Assembly (NCBI GenBank): GCA_020725805.1 | Contig: DYEF01000066.1 | Coordinates: 1-54,983 of the forward strand | Reading direction: 5' to 3' | Source of the DNA: Bdellovibrio sp. | Lineage (GTDB): Bacteria; Myxococcota; SpSt-1050 | Length of the DNA stretch: 54,983 nucleotides | In this document: one piece after another, positions 785 through 54,983 of the stretch | Position numbering within the stretch: position 1 is the stretch's first letter | How the letters are laid out: each line of letters opens with the position of its first letter | Notes under the pieces: model-generated | Database searches by the model: none | The model's input: only the letters and a program-made list of their open reading frames with translations | Told to the model about the DNA's origin: nothing | Translations under genes and position numbers: made by a program

Positions 785-2059
785 TCATTCACTGCATTTC
801 AGATATACCGGATATTCCCTGTCTTTGCTACTTGTATCACCAACCTGTTTATCTGAATTATCTCCCCAGCATACTACCCCGCCGCTCTTTAGCAGTGCAC
901 AGGTATGCTTTCCGCCTGCCTCAACCGCTATGAATCCGGAATCAGTCCACTCTACTCTAACGGGTTTTGGCCTGTTTGATGTGCTGTTATCCCCGATCTG
1001 ACCTCTGTCATTATCACCCCAGCAGTTTATATCTCCTGTCTCAAGGAGTGCGCAGGTGTGCGAACCACCTGCAGAGATTTTCTTAACGACGCTGCTTAAC
1101 CCTGTCACATCAGTGGGTTCCCGCCGCTCTGACATAGTCCCGTCCCCGACCTGTCCTGACGAATTTGCTCCCCAGCACTTCACCCCGCCGTTTTTCATCA
1201 GCGCGCAGGTGTGATTATGACCGGCAGAGACAGATAGAACCTCTGTATTCAGCCCGTTTACTTCAACAGGCAGCTTTTCTTTGTCTGCACCGCCCCCAAG
1301 TTGTCCGGCATAATTAAATCCCCAGCAGAAAAGACTGCCTGAAGACAAAACTGCACAGGTGTGAAAATATCCCGATGAGATATTCTTTACAGACCCGCTA
1401 AGATTCTGGACATTGACAGGTTCAATCCTGTCTTCGGTACTTCCGTCACCTATCTGTCCGAACGTATTATACCCCCAGCATTTTACTCCGCCGCTTTTCA
1501 GCAGTGCGCAGGTGTGAGAATCTCCGGCAGAAACAGAGACAGCATCCTCAATCCCCTTTACAGCAACGGGAGTCGGTCTTTCTTCCCTTGTTCCATCTCC
1601 TATCTGTCCGTGTTCATTATTCCCCCAGCAGTATATCTCACCTGTTTCAAGGAGCGCACAGGTGTGCATACCACCGGCAGTGACCTCCCTGACAGTATTC
1701 TTCAATCCCCTGACATAAACGGGATCAGACCCGGGGACTGCCGTCTTCCCGTCTCCAAGTTCCCCATATTCATTATCACCCCAGCATTTCACACTACCGT
1801 TTTCGAGCAGGCCACAGGTGTGAGAATTTCCGGCAGAAACAGAGAGAATCTTTTTGCCACCGCACAATCCTTTTTCTGCGTCACTTTCCGGATTCACACA
1901 ATACTTTTCAGTACTGCAGACCATGCCCTCTGGGCAGTTACTACTGCTGTTACACCTGATCTTTTCGAGCTCACAGGTGTACAGGCAGAAAGATAACAAC
2001 AGGGATATCAAATTCATTCTGCACTTTTGTATTCTGCAAAACATATTAAAACAGCTCAA
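785..2059 (-). CDS. RCC1-repeat beta-propeller lipoprotein A
   Basis: A probable surface or periplasmic lipoprotein. Seven RCC1-type repeats of ~48 residues are visible, each with an 'AG/SG--HTC' strand, a 'CWG' strand and 'GQ(I/L)GD' turns, so one complete seven-bladed propeller is expected. In every blade the HTC cysteine and the CWG cysteine are ten residues apart. A short Cys-rich segment (CNSSSNCPEGMVC) precedes the blades. The start is ambiguous. TTG at 2059 has an AAGGAAG box ~6 nt upstream and gives a charged n-region. ATG at 2017 gives a shorter signal peptide that aligns with the paralogue immediately upstream (shared C-x-L-x-K-I-R-C). The lipobox (LYTC) is non-canonical. It is the last gene of the minus-strand cluster; ligand unknown. 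Confidence 0.85.
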   Translation of the reverse strand: MSCFNMFCRIQKCRMNLISLLLSFCLYTCELEKIRCNSSSNCPEGMVCSTEKYCVNPESDAEKGLCGGKKILSVSAGNSHTCGLLENGSVKCWGDNEYGELGDGKTAVPGSDPVYVRGLKNTVREVTAGGMHTCALLETGEIYCWGNNEHGQIGDGTREERPTPVAVKGIEDAVSVSAGDSHTCALLKSGGVKCWGYNTFGQIGDGSTEDRIEPVNVQNLSGSVKNISSGYFHTCAVLSSGSLFCWGFNYAGQLGGGADKEKLPVEVNGLNTEVLSVSAGHNHTCALMKNGGVKCWGANSSGQVGDGTMSERREPTDVTGLSSVVKKISAGGSHTCALLETGDINCWGDNDRGQIGDNSTSNRPKPVRVEWTDSGFIAVEAGGKHTCALLKSGGVVCWGDNSDKQVGDTSSKDREYPVYLKCSE

Positions 2060-2088
2060 AAAAGACTTCCTTATCTTGCACCTGTGAT

Positions 2089-3330
2089 TTACTCATTGCA
2101 CAGGACATTCACAGGTTTTGTCCTCTGTAATCCTGTACCGTCCCCGATCTGTCCGTATGCATTCCAGCCCCAGCACATAATCCCGCCCTGTGAAAGCAAT
2201 GCGCAGTTATGTTTCTCGCCGGCACACACATTCTTTACACCTGATTCAAGGCCGAAAACATCATTAGGTTTCCTTGCCTCTTTCGTACTGCCTATTCCTA
2301 TCTGACCGTTCTCATTATCCCCCCAGCATTTAACACTACCCGCCAACATAAGTGCACAGGTGTGATATCCTCCTGCTATAACTGTCCCTACCCCGGCATT
2401 GAGACCAGACACATCAACCGGAAGAGGCTGATTAGTCGTACTTCCGTCCCCTATTTGCCCTGTATCATTTCTTCCCCAACACTTTACCCCGTTGTTTTCC
2501 GTCAGAACGCAGTTATGCGAACCACCGGATGAAATCTGCCTGACACCAAAGGTCAGATTACTTACAGAAACCGGCTCATTTCTGCTGATTGTTGTGTTAT
2601 CACCTAACTGACCGTAATAATTATCACCCCAGCACCTAACGCTGCCGTTTTTCAGCAGTGCACAGGTATGATAATATCCTGCAGAAATCATCTCAACTCC
2701 CTCTTTAAGACCTGAGACATCGACCGGAAGAGGCTGATGAATCGTACTCCCGTCTCCTATCTGCCCTACGTCATTTCTTCCCCAGCACTTCACCCCGCCG
2801 TTTTCCAGCAGAACACAATTATGTGAAGCACCGGATGAAATCTGTTTGACAGCGGCATTAAGATTACTTACAGAGACAGGTTCGATATGAGTGGTAGTGG
2901 TGTTATCCCCCAACTGACCGTATTCATTATCTCCCCAGCATTTAACCCCTCCGTTCTTCAGCAGTGCACAGGTATGACGAAGACCGGCCGAGACAGAGAG
3001 AACCTCTGACTCAAGACTGATTACATAAGCAGGTTCAGGCAGAAACTCACTAACCCCGCCGTTCCCTGTCTGACCCCTGTCACTATTCCCCCAGCACTTA
3101 ACCCTTCCGTTCTTCAGCACGGCACAGGTATGATACAAACCTGCCGTAACAGAAACTGTATCACCCGTCCAGCAGGTCTTTACTGATGTATCTTCCGGTT
3201 CGACACAATAACTCCCCTCCCCGCAAACCATACCCTGAGGGCAGTTATTGTCTGTTCTGCATCTTATTTTATCGAGCGTGCAACCCCCTACAACAACCAT
3301 TACTAAAAGAATAAAAGGCCTTTTATCCAT
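2089..3330 (-). CDS. RCC1-repeat beta-propeller lipoprotein B
   Basis: This is the paralogue of the gene just downstream, with the same layout: lipoprotein signal peptide (lipobox VGGC, Cys17), the Cys-rich 'NNCPQGMVC' motif, then seven RCC1 blades with a paired cysteine in each. Blades 2-3 and 4-5 are much more alike than the others (alternating 'GDN-YGQLGDNTT' and 'GRND-GQIGDGST'). This points to an internal duplication of a two-blade unit of about 300 bp. The ATG has only a weak ribosome site. It starts 27 bp after the amidohydrolase gene and is probably in its operon. RCC1 propellers usually bind proteins or ligands; nothing here identifies the partner. Confidence 0.88.
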   Translation of the reverse strand: MDKRPFILLVMVVVGGCTLDKIRCRTDNNCPQGMVCGEGSYCVEPEDTSVKTCWTGDTVSVTAGLYHTCAVLKNGRVKCWGNSDRGQTGNGGVSEFLPEPAYVISLESEVLSVSAGLRHTCALLKNGGVKCWGDNEYGQLGDNTTTTHIEPVSVSNLNAAVKQISSGASHNCVLLENGGVKCWGRNDVGQIGDGSTIHQPLPVDVSGLKEGVEMISAGYYHTCALLKNGSVRCWGDNYYGQLGDNTTISRNEPVSVSNLTFGVRQISSGGSHNCVLTENNGVKCWGRNDTGQIGDGSTTNQPLPVDVSGLNAGVGTVIAGGYHTCALMLAGSVKCWGDNENGQIGIGSTKEARKPNDVFGLESGVKNVCAGEKHNCALLSQGGIMCWGWNAYGQIGDGTGLQRTKPVNVLCNE

Positions 3331-7806: not shown

Positions 7807-8368
7807 GACTGCGGTTTTACTCCTGTCAATAATACTTTTTCTCTCCTGTGCGGGTGTGGGGTATGATTCCGGAAAGCTGAAGAATCTCCACAGCGCACTT
7901 GCAACTGAGACCCGCAAGGCCTCGATTTACGACGGTTTTCAGAGCCGCGCCTTTTTCAAGGTCATCTACCGCTCATCGGAAATCAGGAAGAAATATGTAG
8001 ATTCAGTAGCCGAAGTAGACAGCCTTACGGAGGCAGAAAAAGAGACCCTCCTCTCAAAAGAGATGGATGAAGAGAAAAAGTACTTTGAGTTCTGTGTAGT
8101 ATTGTCGACTACAGAGTTCAAGGCAAACGACCTGAGTATGAAAAATTCCCTATGGAGAATATTTATGGAAGATTCATCCGGCTTCAGAATCTATCCGTCA
8201 GAGATAAAGGAGATTAAGCCCGACCAGAAAATCAAACTGCTCTATCCGGGAGTATCCCGTTTCGGAAAATTCTACCATATAAAGTTCGAAAAGAAAGACA
8301 GGACAGATATCAAAGGGATGAACCTTGTATTCTCGAGCATCCTCGGAAAGGCAGTATTCAGCTACTGA
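7799..8368 (+). CDS. Hypothetical lipoprotein (189 aa)
   Basis: I do not recognise a family. I start the gene at ATG 7799, inside the pyrE 3' end. From there a lipoprotein signal peptide is evident (MNKTAVLLLSIILFLSC, Cys17), whereas longer versions put the hydrophobic core inside the protein. The mature part is charged, with a helical, Glu/Lys-rich middle around residues 60-105 and a beta-rich C-terminal half. It overlaps pyrE by 8 bp and ends 10 bp before the M50 protease gene, so it is part of this operon. Its role is unknown. Confidence 0.75.
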   Translation: MNKTAVLLLSIILFLSCAGVGYDSGKLKNLHSALATETRKASIYDGFQSRAFFKVIYRSSEIRKKYVDSVAEVDSLTEAEKETLLSKEMDEEKKYFEFCVVLSTTEFKANDLSMKNSLWRIFMEDSSGFRIYPSEIKEIKPDQKIKLLYPGVSRFGKFYHIKFEKKDRTDIKGMNLVFSSILGKAVFSY

Positions 8369-33009: not shown

Positions 33010-33858
33010 ATGTCCTTTCTTATTATCTTTGCAAGACGTTTCGTGGCAGGTGAGGAACTCATTGAGGCAGTACCTGCAATAAAGACATTAAACGAAAAGG
33101 GAATTATGGTCACATTCGACCATCTGGGCGAGAATGTCAGTTCGGAAGAGATGGCAAAGGCGGCGGCAGACTCCTACCTTGAGATACTCGATGTAATTCA
33201 GAAAGAGAAACTCAACTCCAATGTCTCTCTGAAACTCACCCAGATGGGGCTCGATCTGGGAGATGATTTCTGCCTTCAGAATGTCGAAAGGATTGTCAGT
33301 AAAGCAAAAGAGAACAACAACTTTGTAAGAATCGATATGGAGGGCTCTGCATACACACAGAGGACCCTCGATATCACATATAAACTGTTCGAGAAATACG
33401 GCAATGTAGGGGTGGTCATTCAGGCAATGCTTTTAAGAAGCGAAGACGACATAAAGGAACTCAACAGAAGGGGAATAAGAGTAAGACTCTGCAAGGGCGC
33501 ATACAAAGAGCCTGAATCCGTTGCATTCCAGAAGAAGGAACAGGTCAACGAAAACTATATCAAACTTATGAAGATGCTCCTTCTGGAAGGGAACTACCCC
33601 GGCATCGCAACACATGACGAGAAAATAATCGGGGAGTGTAAGAGATTTTCGCAGGAGAACAAGATCGAAAATTCCCGCTTTGAATTCCAGATGCTCTACG
33701 GGATAAGGAGAGACCTGCAGGTATCACTCGTAAAAGAAGGATACAATATGAGGGTTTATGTGCCTTACGGCAAAGAGTGGTTCCCGTATTTCTACAGAAG
33801 ACTCAGAGAGAGAAAAGAGAATGTCTTCTTCGTACTGAAAAACTTCTTTAAGGGCTAA
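33010..33858 (+). CDS. Proline dehydrogenase
   Basis: Oxidises proline to pyrroline-5-carboxylate with FAD. This is the stand-alone TIM-barrel form: 'FDHLGENV' near the start, 'VSLKLTQMGLD', 'RIDMEGSAY', 'VRLCKGAYKEP', 'ATHDE', 'FEFQMLYG' and 'RVYVPYG-EWFPYF'. Its 282 residues are slightly short because the N-terminal helices are reduced. No P5C dehydrogenase gene lies in the window. AAGGAGG precedes the ATG. An M20 peptidase gene follows after 12 bp, so peptide and proline breakdown may be linked. Confidence 0.92.
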   Translation: MSFLIIFARRFVAGEELIEAVPAIKTLNEKGIMVTFDHLGENVSSEEMAKAAADSYLEILDVIQKEKLNSNVSLKLTQMGLDLGDDFCLQNVERIVSKAKENNNFVRIDMEGSAYTQRTLDITYKLFEKYGNVGVVIQAMLLRSEDDIKELNRRGIRVRLCKGAYKEPESVAFQKKEQVNENYIKLMKMLLLEGNYPGIATHDEKIIGECKRFSQENKIENSRFEFQMLYGIRRDLQVSLVKEGYNMRVYVPYGKEWFPYFYRRLRERKENVFFVLKNFFKG

Positions 33859-33870
33859 GGAGGGAAAATT

Positions 33871-35112
33871 ATGTCAGTAAAGATTGCTCACGCCATTTCG
33901 CCGATTGTGGACAAATACAGAGACGAGATGATCAATATGCAGAAGGAGCTCACCAGAAGGGTTGCACTCGACCTTCAATACGGTGGGAAAGGCGAGAAGA
34001 AAAAGGCGGATTATATACTGTCTGTCCTGAAAGATATGCCGTTTACGGAGATAAAAGTATGTTCGGCAAAGGACGAGAGGGACCAGAGTGTGGAAAGACC
34101 AAACATAATTGCAAGGCTTAAAGGCAGGGATTCCTCAAAGACAATATGGATAATGTCCCATATGGATGTCGTACCGGCCGGTGAACCCGGCAGATGGAGT
34201 TCCGACCCGTTCGAGGTCAGAATCGAGGGAGAGAAGCTATTCGGCAGAGGTGTGGAAGACAACCAGCAGGGAATCGTTACATCAATCTTTGCAGTAAAGG
34301 CAATCCTTGAACTCGGTATGCCTCCGATATATGATGTGGGGCTGTTATTCGTCTCCGATGAAGAGACCGGCAACAAATACGGCATAGACTATGTCCTGAA
34401 AAACAATCCCGGATTATTCAGAAAAGACGACCTCATAATCGTCCCTGATGCAGGCTCGCCCGACAGCACTATGATAGAGGTTGCGGAGAAGTCGATACTA
34501 TGGACAAAGTTCACCGTAAAGGGGAAACAGACTCACGCAAGCACACCGAATCTGGGTATAAATCCCCACAGGGCAGGGGCGAATCTGATTGTCAGACTGG
34601 ATAAGGCATTACACAGGAAATTTAATCAGAGGAATAAGGTCTTCGACCCGCCTGTCTCGACATTCGAACCGACCATGAAGGAATCGAATATCCCGAATGT
34701 CAACACGATTCCGGAGACCGATATCTTCTGCTTCGACGCAAGGGTCCTTCCAGAAACGAGTCTTGCTGACGTAAAGTCCGTAATTTCGGAAACCATCGGA
34801 GAAATACAGAAAGAGTTTAATGTAACAGTGGAGACGGAATTTTTGCAGGAAGTACAGGCGGCACCTGCAACACCGGAGGATGCAGAGGCGGTGGAGAGAC
34901 TCAGAAAGGCCATCAAGAAAGTTTATAACCGCACAGCCAGACCGATGGGAATAGGCGGGGGGACAGTGGCAGCTGCATTCAGAAGAATGGGTTTCAATGC
35001 CGTTGTCTGGTCAACGCTCGAGGAGACCGCCCATCAGCCCGACGAATACTGCCTGATTCCCAATCTTATAGGAGACACCAAAGTATTTGCCAATCTGTTT
35101 GCATCGGATTAA
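33871..35112 (+). CDS. M20-family metallopeptidase/deacylase (ArgE/DapE-like)
   Basis: A di-zinc hydrolase related to acetylornithine deacetylase and succinyl-diaminopimelate desuccinylase. 'SHMDVVPAG' holds the first His and Asp, 'GRGVEDNQQG' the bridging Asp, 'SDEETGNKYG' the catalytic and bridging Glu pair, and 'PDAG' another ligand. The dimerisation (lid) domain lies around residues 205-320, and 'IGGGT' and 'TAHQPDE' end the catalytic core. Its substrate may be a dipeptide or an acyl-amino acid; the neighbouring proline dehydrogenase suggests a link to amino-acid use. AAGGAGG lies 8 nt before the ATG. Confidence 0.9.
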   Translation: MSVKIAHAISPIVDKYRDEMINMQKELTRRVALDLQYGGKGEKKKADYILSVLKDMPFTEIKVCSAKDERDQSVERPNIIARLKGRDSSKTIWIMSHMDVVPAGEPGRWSSDPFEVRIEGEKLFGRGVEDNQQGIVTSIFAVKAILELGMPPIYDVGLLFVSDEETGNKYGIDYVLKNNPGLFRKDDLIIVPDAGSPDSTMIEVAEKSILWTKFTVKGKQTHASTPNLGINPHRAGANLIVRLDKALHRKFNQRNKVFDPPVSTFEPTMKESNIPNVNTIPETDIFCFDARVLPETSLADVKSVISETIGEIQKEFNVTVETEFLQEVQAAPATPEDAEAVERLRKAIKKVYNRTARPMGIGGGTVAAAFRRMGFNAVVWSTLEETAHQPDEYCLIPNLIGDTKVFANLFASD

Positions 35113-35133
35113 AAAAAATAGTATGTATTAGTA

Positions 35134-37221
35134 ATGAACGAACCACTGAGGGTTGACCTTGTAATATCAATAATTGCCTTTTCGCTGGCCCTCTCTGTCT
35201 CTTTCAGAAGCACAAGGGACAAACAGCAGACACTTCTGTCCGTATTTTCATTTTTCATTGCGCTAATATTTCTTTTCAAATACATATTTCTGGAAACATC
35301 CACACATATATGGCTGAGACTCTCCATTGGTCTTCTTATACCACTCCCGATTGTAGCACTCTTCCTGATATCCACATTTCTAAAGGAAGAAAACAATCTG
35401 AGCATAGAACTTTATACAATTCAGTATATTTTTGCCCCGATTCTGATAGTCGGACTCTCGACCCCCATATTCAACAACAAAGAGTTTGTCTGGTTCAGTA
35501 TATCGTATGTGTTCGGTATGCTTTTATTTACGTTTATGAATCTTGTCTATATCAGCAGCAGGGAGGAGAACAGATCACAGAAGAAAAGGATTATCCTCCT
35601 GTCCGTTCTCGGGACATTGTCGATATTCTTTTCTATCCTTGCCCTGAAGATAAAAAGTACTCTCCTCTTTTCGGGTACCGATGCCCTGCTTATAATACTT
35701 TTTCTGTACTACATCAGTGAATCGGTACTGAACGGCAAACTGCTGGATCTACAGGAATTTGTCTCAAGGATTCTGATTCTTCTGGTCATCTCGGTAATTA
35801 TATCGGTTATATACTGGATATTCGTAATTCTCATCTCATACAAACCCTCGGATATGCTCCTCAACTCGCTTGCCGTCTCCATATCAATAACACTCGTCTT
35901 CGACCGACTGAGACAATATGTGGCCGGCTTCATCAGCAGTTATATAACCGCCAGAAAAAGGGATTTTACCGCAAGAATAAAACGACTCCGTAAAGAGATA
36001 TCCTCCATAATAGATGCAGAGATACTGCTTAAAAGGGTTGTAGACGAGATATTTGCATCGCAGAAGGTCAACTACTGTGCCTTTTTTATACTGTCAGAGG
36101 AAAGGACATATTACAGGATTCATTATGCACTTGGCCAGCAGATACCCGAGCGGATAGACAACATAATGGACCACTCTCTCATTGAGATGCTGAGTGAACA
36201 GAGACAGATTATCGTAAGGGAGATAATGGAAAAAAGATATTCTCAGGAGCCATCTCTCCCCGAAGAAAGCTCCCAGCAGTTAAAGACCCGTGATGCCCTC
36301 AATTCACTTGTAAGGCTCGATATCTCATTAATTTTTCCGGTATTCATAGAAAACGAGATGTACTATCTTCTGGCAATCAATGATTCGGGAGTCCCAGAGC
36401 CTCTTAACGCAGAGGAACTCGGAGAACTCATCGAACTTCTGGAGCAGGTATCCGTATCCCTTCAGAATCTCAGAATATTCGAAGGGATAAAGGAGAAGGA
36501 CAGGCTTGCGGCACTCGGCGAGATGGCTGCCGGACTTGCACACGAAATCCGTAATCCTCTCGGTGCAATAAAGGGTGCCGCACAGTATCTGAATCCGGCC
36601 AACCTCCCTCAGGAGGAGGCAGAATTTCTGAAAATCATAATCGAGGAGACAGACCGGCTCAACAGGGTTCTGACACAGTTTCTGGATTACTCCCGTCCGT
36701 ATCAGGGTGAATCTTCATCTGTCAGCCTCGACAATCTGCTCAGGCAGATAATCAGACTCTTTTCATCGGACAAGGAACAGAAATATTCCATCAGATATTC
36801 GAACTCATCAGAGGATTCGATTGTAAAAATCGATACCGAACAGTTCAGACAGGTAATGATAAACATTCTGAAGAATGCTCAGGAGGCTATGCCCGACGGA
36901 GGTGAAATAGAGATAAAGGTATATAAGGAGAATCCGATAGGCAGGAAGATTCTCTCGACGGTCCTTATGAGAGAAAGAGAGGGTTCGGACAAAATATTTA
37001 TTGATATTACCGACAAAGGTATCGGGATTGACGAAAAAGATATAAAGAAGGTATTTATTCCTTTCTTTACGACAAAGAAGAGCGGAACGGGTCTTGGTCT
37101 TGCAATCTCCAGAAAGATTATCGAGTCCCAGAACGGGAAACTCGAGATTTTCAGTAAAAAAGGGGAAGGTACAACAGTCAGAATTACACTGCTCTCCTTC
37201 AGTCCGGAGTCACTGAAATGA
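35134..37221 (+). CDS. Membrane sensor histidine kinase with GAF domain
   Basis: About eight hydrophobic helices fill residues 1-265, an unclassified integral-membrane sensor. A GAF-like domain follows (~285-450), then a HisKA box with 'LAHEIRNPLGAIKG' (His470) and a HATPase domain with 'NILKNAQEAMPDGG' (N box), 'DKGIGI' and 'TGLGLAISRKI' (G boxes). The NtrB-like H box suggests pairing with an NtrC-type regulator, but no response regulator gene is near. No clear ribosome site precedes ATG 35134. The last 4 bp overlap the CNNM gene. Confidence 0.92.
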   Translation: MNEPLRVDLVISIIAFSLALSVSFRSTRDKQQTLLSVFSFFIALIFLFKYIFLETSTHIWLRLSIGLLIPLPIVALFLISTFLKEENNLSIELYTIQYIFAPILIVGLSTPIFNNKEFVWFSISYVFGMLLFTFMNLVYISSREENRSQKKRIILLSVLGTLSIFFSILALKIKSTLLFSGTDALLIILFLYYISESVLNGKLLDLQEFVSRILILLVISVIISVIYWIFVILISYKPSDMLLNSLAVSISITLVFDRLRQYVAGFISSYITARKRDFTARIKRLRKEISSIIDAEILLKRVVDEIFASQKVNYCAFFILSEERTYYRIHYALGQQIPERIDNIMDHSLIEMLSEQRQIIVREIMEKRYSQEPSLPEESSQQLKTRDALNSLVRLDISLIFPVFIENEMYYLLAINDSGVPEPLNAEELGELIELLEQVSVSLQNLRIFEGIKEKDRLAALGEMAAGLAHEIRNPLGAIKGAAQYLNPANLPQEEAEFLKIIIEETDRLNRVLTQFLDYSRPYQGESSSVSLDNLLRQIIRLFSSDKEQKYSIRYSNSSEDSIVKIDTEQFRQVMINILKNAQEAMPDGGEIEIKVYKENPIGRKILSTVLMREREGSDKIFIDITDKGIGIDEKDIKKVFIPFFTTKKSGTGLGLAISRKIIESQNGKLEIFSKKGEGTTVRITLLSFSPESLK

Positions 37222-50568: not shown

Positions 50569-50622
50569 TGTTGCAAAAATAATAATAAATGTTAAATGAG
50601 CTTCCTATATAAGGAGGAAGTG

Positions 50623-53193
50623 ATGAAGAAGGCAGAGGCATTTTTCATTATTGCTTTTCTTTTATCTGTTTTTGCCTGTACAGATGAGAATATTGCTCAG
50701 GATGATACAAACATATATTCAGATACGATACACGATATTAAAACTACAGATGTTAACAATGATACCGGGACGAATTCAGATACATATTTTCCCGATGTTC
50801 TGACTGATACCGAAATCTGTTTTATCAAGTGTCCTGAGAATATGCACTGTGAAAATAATCAGTGTGTCTGCGATAAGAATTATGGAGATTGCAACAATGA
50901 CGAGAGCGACGGATGTGAATCCGACCTCACAAGTCTTAAGACCTGCGGAGACTGCAATACCGATTGCAGCGTACCTATGCTCGGTGTCGAGGAATTTGCC
51001 TGTGTCAGCGGTTTATGTGAAGTTGCAAAATGCAAGGCCGGACGGGCAAACTGCAACGGAAAACACAACGATGGTTGCGAGGTATATCTAAACGATGACC
51101 CAAAGAATTGCTCAATGTGTAATTTCGATTGTGGGGAGAATTCTATTTGTGAAAACGGAAAATGCGGATGTCAGACAGGTTTTGCCAACTGCAATCTTCT
51201 CCTCGACGACGGGTGCGAACAGAATATTTCGATTGACAATGATAATTGCGGAGCCTGTAATCACAAATGCGGGCTGAATGCCTACTGTAGCAATCAAAAC
51301 TGTCTCTGTACAGATGGATTTGGAGATTGTAACAACTCCAATTCTGACGGGTGTGAGACGAGAATTAACGAGGATAAATTCAACTGCGGAAAATGCAAAA
51401 ATGACTGTACCAGGCTTGCGAATGTTAGTTCGGTAAAATGTGATACAGGCAGTTGCGTAATAATTGAATGCCAGTATGGATTTGGCAACTGCGACAACTA
51501 TAATTCAAATGGATGCGAAGCAAATTTTTCCACTGACCCGCAGCACTGTGGCAACTGCTCAACAGACTGCGGTAATAATTCAATTTGCAACAACAAAATC
51601 TGTGACTGCAAGGTCGATTATGCAAACTGCGACAAGTTATGGAGTAACGGTTGCGAGATAAATCTAAGTGACCCCAAAACCTGCGGTACAACCTGCGAAA
51701 ATTATATAAGCTGTAACGCAAATGCGATCTGCAACAAACATCAGTGTGAATGTCAGGCGCCTTTTGCAAACTGTGATACTTTCTGGAGTACCGGATGCGA
51801 GATCGACACAAGCAGCGACAGATTAAATTGCGGAATCTGTGGCAAACAGTGTAAAGATATTAACTACAGCGGGAGTTGTGTCAATAGCAAATGTGCCGGC
51901 AAATACAGCTTTGCCTTCTCCTATGGCTCCACAGGAGACGACAGCGGAGTACTCCTCGCAACAGACCCGAGCGGAAATATCATAATGGCCGGAAATTTCT
52001 CAGGACAGCTAAATATCAGCGGTAAGATACTAACTCCGGCAGGAAATACGGATATTTTCATTGCCAAATTCAATAGTTCAGGACTTCTGCTCGATGCAAA
52101 ATCATTTGGCTCAATAAAGGACGACCATGTACAGGGACTCACCTTAAATAAAAACGGAGACGTAATTATCACCGGTTATTATGAAGATACTATCAATTTT
52201 GGCGGGGGAATCCTGAATAATTTTGGAGAGAATGACATATTCCTTTCAAAATTTAGCAATAATCTCGAATATATCTGGGCAAAGGGGTTTGGCTCGGCAG
52301 AAGACGATGACGGAATAGCTGTAACGGTCGATAAAGATCAGGACATAATTCTGGGGGCACGGTTTTCAGGATTAATAGATATAGAAGGTAATACATTTTC
52401 GAGCAAGGGATGCACTGATATATTGCTGATAAAAATAACCAATAACGGAGCATTACTTTGGGCAAAGGCATTCGGGGCCGCCCCTGCAATGAACGGCTGC
52501 GATACGATAAGCAGTATAGTTACCGACATCCAGCAGAACATATATATAACCGGCGCTTTCCAGCTAAAGGAGAACTTCGGAGGTAGCGACATCGATTCAA
52601 AGGGGAGCAATGATATATTCCTTGCATCATTCGATAAAGACGGCAAGCATATAAGGAGTGTGGGCATCGGTTCACCAAAAATTGATGTAGGTCTTGGTCT
52701 CCGTATAAACTCAAAAAACGAGCTCGTGCTGGGTGCGGTATATTCGGATGCTCTCAAGATAAATTATCAGGAACTCGGCATCAGAGGAGGTATGGATATA
52801 CTTATTTCAAAATTCGACACCGGACTGAATTTTGTCAAGGCAGTAAGTTTCGGCTCTTCAGGCGATGATATACCTGTACTAACCCTCGATAAGGATGACA
52901 ACGTAATTTTTACCGGTTATTCGAAAGGGCTTATCAGGTTCGGTGAAGAGGAACTCGCAAATAAAGGCGATGCTGATATCATACTTGTAAAACTAAATTC
53001 TGACCTCAATCACATATTCAGCTATACCTTTGGTTCGGCAAAATATGACTCGGGTCTGGGCATTACAACGGATAATTCAGGTAATATTTATATAACAGGC
53101 GAGATATCGGGAGCCGTAGATTTTGGCGGCGGAGATGTTCCGTATCCCGAATTCCACCTGACAGACTTCTTTATTGCAAAATTTCTGCCGTAA
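50623..53193 (+). CDS. Cys-repeat plus SBBP beta-propeller lipoprotein
   Basis: ATG 50623 follows AAGGAGG and gives 856 residues with a lipobox VFAC (Cys18). After an Asp/Thr-rich linker come about seven repeats (~75-430) of the delta-lineage type 'G-CNN--SDGCE' and 'NCG-C---C'. Residues ~435 to the end hold seven copies of a ~60-residue SBBP repeat ('FGS--DD', 'DGNIIMAG'-like, 'DIFIAKF'). The last strand (FFIAKFLP) ends exactly at the repeat boundary, so the seven repeats should close one propeller. This is a surface-anchored binding protein; ligand unknown. It shares the linker and Cys style, but not the fold, of the gene upstream. Confidence 0.9.
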   Translation: MKKAEAFFIIAFLLSVFACTDENIAQDDTNIYSDTIHDIKTTDVNNDTGTNSDTYFPDVLTDTEICFIKCPENMHCENNQCVCDKNYGDCNNDESDGCESDLTSLKTCGDCNTDCSVPMLGVEEFACVSGLCEVAKCKAGRANCNGKHNDGCEVYLNDDPKNCSMCNFDCGENSICENGKCGCQTGFANCNLLLDDGCEQNISIDNDNCGACNHKCGLNAYCSNQNCLCTDGFGDCNNSNSDGCETRINEDKFNCGKCKNDCTRLANVSSVKCDTGSCVIIECQYGFGNCDNYNSNGCEANFSTDPQHCGNCSTDCGNNSICNNKICDCKVDYANCDKLWSNGCEINLSDPKTCGTTCENYISCNANAICNKHQCECQAPFANCDTFWSTGCEIDTSSDRLNCGICGKQCKDINYSGSCVNSKCAGKYSFAFSYGSTGDDSGVLLATDPSGNIIMAGNFSGQLNISGKILTPAGNTDIFIAKFNSSGLLLDAKSFGSIKDDHVQGLTLNKNGDVIITGYYEDTINFGGGILNNFGENDIFLSKFSNNLEYIWAKGFGSAEDDDGIAVTVDKDQDIILGARFSGLIDIEGNTFSSKGCTDILLIKITNNGALLWAKAFGAAPAMNGCDTISSIVTDIQQNIYITGAFQLKENFGGSDIDSKGSNDIFLASFDKDGKHIRSVGIGSPKIDVGLGLRINSKNELVLGAVYSDALKINYQELGIRGGMDILISKFDTGLNFVKAVSFGSSGDDIPVLTLDKDDNVIFTGYSKGLIRFGEEELANKGDADIILVKLNSDLNHIFSYTFGSAKYDSGLGITTDNSGNIYITGEISGAVDFGGGDVPYPEFHLTDFFIAKFLP

Positions 53194-53198
53194 ACAGA

Positions 53199-53277
53199 CA
53201 ATTCCACAAATTTGTCAGATTTTATGGACTACCACTCCACAAAATAGCCTTATTTTATGGATTTAATCGGTGTCAGG
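53199..53277. repeat. 79-bp direct repeat, copy 1
   Basis: Identical to copy 2 (54637-54715) except at three positions, with no gaps. It contains two tandem 24-bp imperfect palindromes that begin CCACAAA and end TTTTATGG (53204-53227 and 53237-53260), separated by 9 bp. The repeat ends in GGTGTCAGG. The structure recalls REP/BIME units spread by Y1 (TnpA-REP) transposases, but no such gene is in the window. Confidence 0.85.
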
Positions 53278-53300
53278 CAGATTTCATAAAATGACATTGA

Positions 53301-53473
53301 GTAGGCAAAGCCGTACCGAAATCTCCGACTCAGACGGTCGTCTCAATACATTTCCTTACTCAACAACCGGTTTTGCTCATCCAAGCTGTTATCGCAAGGA
53401 CATTGATTAGTGAGTAGAATGAGCATACTGAGATTCCCAATTCAGGTGGTGGTTTCGGTAAATTTCACTACTT
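53301..53473. repeat. ~170-bp imperfect inverted repeat
   Basis: Matching blocks are in order and spacing on both arms: TACCGAAA (53314-53321) with TTTCGGTA (53453-53460), TCTCA (53341-53345) with TGAGA (53429-53433), and TACTCA (53357-53362) with TGAGTA (53411-53416). Offsets from the first block are 27 and 43 on one arm, 27 and 44 on the other. The ~50-base centre is unpaired. It may be a structured RNA, a MITE-like element or an inverted duplication. Confidence 0.55.
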
Positions 53474-53492
53474 AATTACACCTTTAGAGAGC

Positions 53493-54620
53493 CTATCCCA
53501 CAAAGTCGATAAAATTAGATTTGTTTATCAGTTTTATCTCAGAACTATAGATCTGTTTCCACTGTTCTATCTGTCTGATACTTTCTTCTCCAAACTTAAA
53601 TTCATAGGCAGAGAGTCTCCCGTCCTTCTCCTCCACAAGGTCAATCTCATATTTATCCCATGTCCGCCAGAAGTAAAGATTTGAATAATCCTGTAAATAA
53701 CTCACTTTTTTCAGTCTTTCCATAAATACAAAGTTTTCCCACAATCTGCCAATATCATCTCTCAAATCGAGAGTATTAAAATTAGAGATGAGCGAATTGA
53801 TAATTCCATTGTCATAAAAATAATATTTCTTCTTTTTACTCATCTCCTTCCTGAGATTACGACTAAACGCCGAAAGAGAATAAATTATATAACTCTTCTC
53901 AAGCAGATCGATATATCTTTTGACTGTCTTGACATCGACTCCACAGGTATTTGCAAGCTCATTTAAGGAGACCTCAGAACCAATCTGAAAGGCAAGAGCC
54001 CGGAGTAGCTGCAGAATAACATTTGATTTCTTAATACCCTCAAACTTCAGAATGTCTTTTAATAAATACGAATTTGTAATCTCATTTATATATTCGATCT
54101 TATCCTTTTTGTTTTCAGCAATAAGTACCCGTGGATACATTCCAAATACCATAAAATCTGAAAGTCTCTCCTTTATTTCCAAATCATTCAAATCTGATTT
54201 CAACTCAAGAACCGAGACACAGAAGAGATTTAATGAAATCTTTCTCCCTGTCAGAGGCTCCCCGACCTTATTTGAGAGTTCAAAGGAAGAAGAACCCGTA
54301 AGTATAAATCTTACACTACTTATGTTATCTACAGCAAGTTTAACAGACTCACCAATATTTCTTATCTTCTGGGCCTCGTCGATAATCACAAGCTCATACC
54401 CGGCAACAAATTCCCTGATAAGCTTAAGATTTCTCGATGATAATATCTCTTCTGCCCTGATATCATCGCCGGTAACATAGAGATATCTGAGCCCTGATTC
54501 TTCAGCATATAATCTGACCAGAGTAGTCTTCCCGGCCTGCCTTGGTCCAGTAATAATAATTACCCTATGTTTACCTAAAAACTCATTCAGAAGATTTTTA
54601 TCATAATATCTCTTTAACAT
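53493..54620 (-). CDS. AAA-type ATPase of the DUF4143 group
   Basis: Walker A 'GPRQAGKTTLV' near residue 25, Walker B 'ELVIIDEAQ' and sensor-like 'FILTGSSSFEL' lie in the N-terminal half. The C-terminal half has a winged-helix segment and the DUF4143 nuclease-like end ('FWRTWDKYEIDLVEE', 'AYEFKFGEE', with the D-E-K pattern of restriction-like folds). These ATPases are frequent, patchily distributed accessory genes of unclear role. ATG 54620 gives 375 aa, close to the usual length, but has no clear ribosome site. The gene sits between the two 79-bp repeats, on the strand opposite to the preceding lipoprotein genes, and is more AT-rich by eye than its neighbours. Confidence 0.85.
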   Translation of the reverse strand: MLKRYYDKNLLNEFLGKHRVIIITGPRQAGKTTLVRLYAEESGLRYLYVTGDDIRAEEILSSRNLKLIREFVAGYELVIIDEAQKIRNIGESVKLAVDNISSVRFILTGSSSFELSNKVGEPLTGRKISLNLFCVSVLELKSDLNDLEIKERLSDFMVFGMYPRVLIAENKKDKIEYINEITNSYLLKDILKFEGIKKSNVILQLLRALAFQIGSEVSLNELANTCGVDVKTVKRYIDLLEKSYIIYSLSAFSRNLRKEMSKKKKYYFYDNGIINSLISNFNTLDLRDDIGRLWENFVFMERLKKVSYLQDYSNLYFWRTWDKYEIDLVEEKDGRLSAYEFKFGEESIRQIEQWKQIYSSEIKLINKSNFIDFVG

Positions 54621-54636
54621 ATAGTGATATTTTAAC

Positions 54637-54715
54637 CAATTCCACAAATTTGTCAAATTTTATGGACTACTACTCCACAAAATAACCTTATTTTATGGAT
54701 TTAATCGGTGTCAGG
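54637..54715. repeat. 79-bp direct repeat, copy 2
   Basis: The second copy, 76 of 79 bases identical to copy 1, begins 16 bp upstream of the ATPase start codon and therefore contributes the promoter region of that gene. The bases beyond the GGTGTCAGG end differ from those after copy 1. Confidence 0.85.
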
Positions 54716-54784
54716 TACAAATTACATTTCAAATTACATTTTTAAACTGAGGCCTCGCACCTACTATTGAAACAACTCTATATC

Positions 54785-54983
54785 TCATATCTCTCTCATT
54801 ATCCTCTTAAGCTCAGTTGCTATTCGTATTGTTGTCTCTTTGTCCTGCGTTGGTCCTACAGGCAGGCTTATTACCTCCTTCGCAAACTGTTCGGCATTTT
54901 TAAGTTCCAAGCACCTCATTCGCCCCTTAAATACTGCCATACTACTAAGCAAAACAGGATAATAGACCATACTGCTTATACCG
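54785..54983 (-). CDS. DegT/DnrJ/EryC1-type sugar aminotransferase, C-terminal part
   Basis: The reading frame is open to the window edge, so the gene is partial; only the C-terminal ~65 residues are seen. 'GISSMVYYPVLLSS' and 'NAEQFAKEVISLPVGPTQ' match the end of PLP-dependent sugar aminotransferases of the DegT family ('VYYPxPLH', 'AE----V-SLP--P'). They make amino sugars for surface polysaccharides. The family's usual 'P-LH' is changed to 'V-LLSS' here, so either the enzyme has diverged or the copy is decayed. It has no gene partner visible inside the window. Confidence 0.7.
   Translation of the reverse strand, partial: GISSMVYYPVLLSSMAVFKGRMRCLELKNAEQFAKEVISLPVGPTQDKETTIRIATELKRIMREI

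Follow-up and report, generated by a model that had tools for sequence, protein, structure and literature searches.

How does a single gene come to lie between two long direct copies of the same sequence? The question is raised by a contig from a Bdellovibrio sp. genome, which was analysed over its entire 54,983 nt (hereafter, the window) and which belongs to a 3.29-Mb assembly of 115 contigs. Toward one end of the window, two gap-free copies of a 79-bp sequence (53199-53277 and 54637-54715) enclose one gene, which codes for an ATPase with DUF4143 and AAA_14 domains (Pfam). The copies are identical at 76 of 79 positions and are separated by 1438 bp from start to start. This arrangement had been described in an earlier note on the same DNA and was confirmed by our analysis, and a chance origin of the pair is excluded. 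The features of the locus are as follows; the hairpins, identified by pattern scan and folding, are listed without strand.

50596..53193, plus strand: host gene for an 865-aa cysteine-rich protein, upstream of copy 1
53199..53277, plus strand: repeat copy 1, which lies 3' of the ATPase gene and starts 6 bp past the upstream gene's stop codon
53203..53228: hairpin 1 of copy 1 (CCACAAA...TTTTATGG pattern at 53204-53227)
53236..53261: hairpin 2 of copy 1 (pattern at 53237-53260)
53278..53298, plus strand: possible extension of copy 1, gapped and weak, partner of 54716-54740
53493..54620, minus strand: ATPase gene, 375 aa, with AAA_14, winged helix and DUF4143 (Pfam, PADLOC, invariant columns and structure model)
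54629..54656, minus strand: promoter-like site of the ATPase gene, matching at 11 of 12 positions in a consensus scan (a consensus match only)
54637..54715, plus strand: repeat copy 2, 96% identical to copy 1, which lies 5' of the ATPase gene
54641..54666: hairpin 1 of copy 2 (pattern at 54642-54665)
54674..54699: hairpin 2 of copy 2 (pattern at 54675-54698)
54716..54740, plus strand: possible extension of copy 2, gapped and weak
54785..54982, minus strand: DegT/DnrJ/EryC1 aminotransferase gene, its C-terminal end, truncated where the contig stops

We read copy 1 as the native copy of the target and copy 2 as the duplicated one. When gaps are permitted, the alignment lengthens to 104 bp at 89% identity (53199-53298 with 54637-54740), and the stretch gained beyond 79 bp is a tentative addition with a shuffle fraction of 0.0125. 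A repeat search of the window found no inverted repeats bracketing the ATPase gene. The start of the window (845-3153) holds a tandem array of repeats of about 150 bp, in which 12 copies of an 84-nt unit were detected.

The internal structure of the repeat likewise agrees with its first description. Two CCACAAA...TTTTATGG palindromes, spaced 9 bp apart, lie within each copy, and both copies end in GGTGTCAGG. The window has four occurrences of the palindrome pattern and 100 shuffles have none, and folding of the copies as DNA gives a mild gain over shuffles (z -1.4 to -2.7). A further palindrome had been claimed on the 3' side of the gene and was not recovered, in that the segment from copy 1 to the gene (53278-53492) folds no better than shuffles (z -0.01). 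A search of the repeat region for known RNA families found none.

The protein encoded between the copies matches the PADLOC model PDC-S01 (PDLC04789) along its full length (E 3.6e-138; residues 1-374 against positions 1-373 of 375). Its Walker A, Walker B and D-x(n)-ExK motifs are nearly or fully invariant across 16 family sequences. The last of these, formed in the window protein by D327, E340 and K342, is typical of PD-(D/E)XK nucleases, and a domain of this type is assigned on the basis of the motif and a weak match to a Cas4 profile. A structure model of the protein has a mean pLDDT of 86.9, and the nearest solved structures in a fold search with this model are two archaeal AAA+ ATPases (2fna and 2qen). 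We therefore treat the window ATPase as a PDC-S01 protein, a putative single-gene defence system combining an AAA ATPase and a winged helix with a PD-(D/E)XK-type motif. PDC-S01 is reported to rank as the fourth commonest defence system in prokaryotes, and validation of activity is pending for most such defence candidates, PDC-S01 among them (PMC12988326).

The repeat also bears on the region upstream of the ATPase gene, much as had been supposed. A candidate -35 element, TTGACA (54656-54651), lies inside copy 2, and after a spacing of 16 bp a candidate -10 element, TAAAAT (54634-54629), falls just outside the repeat. The counterpart of the TTGACA hexamer in copy 1 is CTGACA.

Whether the bracketing is particular to the window was addressed by a scan conducted in stages, beginning with 31 loci with 1500-bp flanks, continuing with 121 ATPases and 426 controls with 600-bp flanks, and ending with an enlarged set. 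The scan took ORFs of 250-600 aa and looked, for each, for the strongest match on the same strand between the 600 bp upstream and the 600 bp downstream. Loci were deduplicated, the cut-off for a bracket was at least 60 bits, and six control ORFs that overlapped Fic frames were moved to the Fic class. Direct repeats at this cut-off flank 16 of 186 DUF4143 ATPases (a tandem array, L090, is included in this count) and 2 of 516 other ORFs (p = 3e-8). Fic genes are bracketed in 5 of 56 cases, a rate indistinguishable from that of the ATPases (p = 1). The pattern holds at thresholds of 40 and 50 bits. As an internal control, these flanks were also searched for inverted repeats, which would be expected of transposon ends; such repeats were found at 2 of 186 ATPases, both of them palindromes in one locus (L140).

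An early comparison had made this footprint appear specific to DUF4143, and the Fic result weakened that reading. Because Fic had been picked as an accessory-gene control and came out positive, the footprint cannot be claimed as a property of DUF4143 alone. About 91% of the DUF4143 ATPases have no detectable bracket, and the 8.6% that do (16/186) should not be taken as a family-wide frequency because the sample is enriched for closer relatives of the window protein: brackets occur at 13 of 85 named loci picked for similarity to that protein, compared with 3 of 90 loci from phylum genomes. Among 22 DUF4143 ATPases in plasmid or phage records there is no convincing bracket and no clean empty allele; the one weak bracket in this group (L359) is 51 bp long at 82% identity.

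Several loci met in the course of the scan deserve separate mention. The brackets at L158 and L159, which fall below 60 bits, were set aside when a third copy of the repeat turned up in front of another gene; this repeat may be a promoter element. At L158 (Colicola), a promoter-like unit stands before successive genes at 7913, 9165 and 11233, the DUF4143 gene included. In Anaerophaga (L120:6474-9296), a short PIN-domain-like ORF bracketed by a 78-bp repeat lies beside a DUF4143 gene that is bracketed by related copies. On a Treponema saccharophilum plasmid (L170:851-2467), a GxxExxY and Fic pair lies within a 36-bp direct repeat and adjoins a DUF4143 gene. Four Fic genes (L210, L338, L312 and L335) have direct repeats of 42-207 bp, some of which overlap the 3' end of a neighbouring gene.

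The identity of the repeats is informative about their origin. Apart from the window, 15 DUF4143 genes are bracketed at 60 bits or more, most of them by host sequence. The repeat differs at every bracketed DUF4143 locus and is usually a piece of a neighbouring host gene, whether its 3' end, its promoter or a tRNA. In Pedobacter (L118) it is the 3' end of rsmG; at L065, the final 46 bp of an ABC permease gene, stop codon included; at L139, the 3' 40 bp of a tRNA-Leu gene; at L145, the next gene's promoter and initial codons; at L302, the final 25 bp of a gene; and at L163, part of a neighbouring gene. Terminator-like palindromes form the repeats at L140 and L126. These assignments of gene ends, promoters and terminators were made by reading the sequence, apart from those that rest on Pfam or ARAGORN. 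Across 17 genes bracketed at 50 bits or more, with the tandem array omitted, the downstream copy starts a median of 27 bp from the ATPase stop codon and the upstream copy ends a median of 79 bp before the start of the ATPase ORF. Because the repeat is specific to each locus and is usually a piece of a local host gene, it reads as a duplicated target and not as part of a carrier.

If the repeats are duplicated targets, relatives might retain the site as it was before insertion. For L065, the two flanks were joined into one query, which was searched against 96 genomes of the family. Empty sites were found at 16 loci, all in other genera, where some 25-50 bp separate the permease gene from the same next gene and no ATPase lies between them. 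Two of these (in G069 and G181) align across the junction as one piece. In L188 the bases past the permease stop codon agree with the bases that follow the downstream copy in G087, the genome that carries L065, as they should if the ancestral junction is preserved in that copy. As read from these gene orders, the ancestral state of L065 is one with no ATPase between the permease and the next gene. DNA identity in this comparison is 65-75%, so that it is from the gene ends, and not base by base, that we deduce a single copy of the 46 bp in the ancestor. A like search for L248 found its flanks not conserved in the family.

For the site in the window, the comparison is with the only congener, G001, in which the ortholog of the 865-aa gene (63% identity) has a penicillin-binding protein gene after it, and no ATPase. 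Gene order departs from that of the window on either side of this ortholog, and the intergenic DNA does not align. With synteny thus broken, no exact empty site for the window is present in the data. No DUF4143 match was found in G001 at E <= 1e-20, and the distribution of the window ATPase is patchy, with its nearest relatives in Spirochaetes, Bacteroidales and other groups.

It is very likely that the window ATPase gene arrived as a single-gene insertion, and we think it probable that this was an insertion with long target duplication. To this extent the earlier proposal that the gene moved as a cargo stands, whereas carriage between dedicated repeats does not, given that the repeat differs at each locus and is usually host-derived. 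Under the explanation that we prefer, the DUF4143 ATPase gene, a candidate defence gene of the PDC-S01 type, would enter the site as a one-gene DNA segment, and some 80-100 bp of host DNA just past the stop codon of the 865-aa gene would be duplicated. The host gene would keep its own 3' region in the form of copy 1, and the incoming gene would gain copy 2 upstream, with a promoter -35 element. The repeats could result if host repair captured the incoming fragment and filled in a target that was staggered or nicked at distant positions. Long direct repeats of host sequence do surround the gene at the window (79-104 bp, beginning 6 bp past the host stop codon).

We infer that the window pair arose in the same way as the pairs of other family members. 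With less certainty, the duplication would have come from fill-in during capture by host repair, with the ATPase itself not acting as a transposase. Since Fic genes show an equal footprint, we favour a process driven by the host over self-transposition, and for the same reason the insertion machinery need not be encoded by the ATPase. Recombination between the two copies could plausibly delete the ATPase gene, as had also been suggested, and no such deletion was seen.

The alternative that survives best is one in which tandem duplication of a block consisting of the ATPase gene and its flank was followed by loss of one ATPase, so that the survivor lies between flank copies with no target duplication at all. 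The second DUF4143 gene of the same genome (L016, also L087; G000:C42, about 33436-35526) has its own, unrelated 87-bp direct pair, and in its upstream copy the relic of an ATPase 3' end is fused to an ATPase-like 5' flank; judged by this junction, the copy is an internally deleted ATPase relic. An ATPase C-terminal relic is also present in the upstream copy at L136. These two relics and the tandem ATPase array at L090 show that some brackets in the family arise by duplication and deletion, and simpler routes of this kind have been argued for in a study of Arabidopsis (PMC2869330). The window copies, however, are free of sequence coding for the ATPase, and an unrelated gene has its stop codon right beside copy 1. 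Moreover, the repeats at L118, L065, L139, L145, L163 and L302 belong to neighbouring genes, and at L065 the ancestral arrangement has the same two genes with no ATPase between them. For the window, we therefore regard this route as unlikely, if the most serious of the competitors.

Less probable again is the view that PDC-S01 is an autonomous mobile element of one gene, whose own nuclease-type domain and ATPase nick the target with a wide stagger and so generate duplications of 25-125 bp. In its favour, nothing but the ATPase gene occupies the interval between the copies, its product unites a nuclease-type motif with an AAA motor, and its distribution is patchy. Against this, Fic genes do not encode nucleases and yet are bracketed at an equal rate, and no conserved terminal sequence or target motif is discernible by eye among the elements. 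We accordingly give this view little weight.

The earlier note had instead likened the repeat to REP/BIME sequences, which would make it a mobile unit of the RAYT type that brackets and mobilizes the ATPase gene. Like REP/BIME sequences with RAYT, the window repeat is made of short intergenic palindromes and is directly oriented. Its last 9-16 bp also resemble a dispersed motif, GGTGYCAGGTACAATT (GGTGYCAGGTA(C/G)AATT), which has 31 sites in the genome compared with 2 in a reversed control when up to 2 mismatches are permitted; its window site is at 54707-54722, and it is the terminal GGTGTCAGG that provides the resemblance. Unlike REP/BIME sequences, the repeat is neither numerous nor dispersed. 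The 79-bp unit has two copies in the whole 3.29-Mb genome, both at the window locus, and the hairpin motif has four sites, all within those copies. The unit was found in 0 of 38 relatives searched, and the repeat was found in none of the viral contigs, GTDB genome contigs (exact pattern) or plasmids searched. A search for a Y1/TnpA-REP transposase yielded one Y1 (Y1_Tnp) gene in the genome, on another contig that lacks the 79-bp unit, and no transposase gene adjoins the repeat. On copy number, a REP/BIME-RAYT identity is out, and this reading is by far the least credible of those considered.

The dispersed motif GGTGYCAGGTACAATT occurs at many sites without ATPases. It is a separate feature, and the target lay in or beside it. 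It is often followed by TTCTAACC..TTGATATTATTG and sometimes forms direct pairs 60-70 bp apart, and it is possibly a repeat linked to the Y1 transposase.

The recurrence of the bracketing footprint in many relatives, together with a pre-insertion site recovered for one of them, suggests how lone genes enter genomes and makes their route of entry testable. Such a footprint would also serve as a simple signature in genome scans for recently acquired single genes. If PDC-S01 were after all an autonomous element, it would represent a mode of transposition without transposase, integrase or terminal repeats.

Among known systems, the window ATPase conforms to PDC-S01 of PADLOC in its full-length match and in its architecture of ATPase plus PD-(D/E)XK (PMC12988326), and the literature that we found on PDC-S01 describes neither an insertion route nor flanking repeats. 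Integrative elements that use tRNA genes or gene 3' ends as att sites recall L139, at the 3' end of tRNA-Leu, and L118, L065 and L302, at the 3' ends of other genes. The DUF4143 loci differ from these elements in having no integrase, an insert of one gene, and a locus-specific duplication that can include promoters and terminators. The closest counterpart is insertion with long target duplication as reported for R-M genes of Helicobacter pylori (Nobusato et al. 2000, as related in PMC3031569 and PMC1643837). As far as those accounts go, the H. pylori insertions differ in their cargo, which at the DUF4143 loci is a single ATPase gene (with Fic genes as a parallel case) spread over many phyla. 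They share with the DUF4143 loci the lack of a transposase and long, variable direct repeats of host sequence, and with L065 in particular an empty allele in relatives, and the footprint suggests that R-M, PDC-S01 and Fic genes have one insertion route in common.
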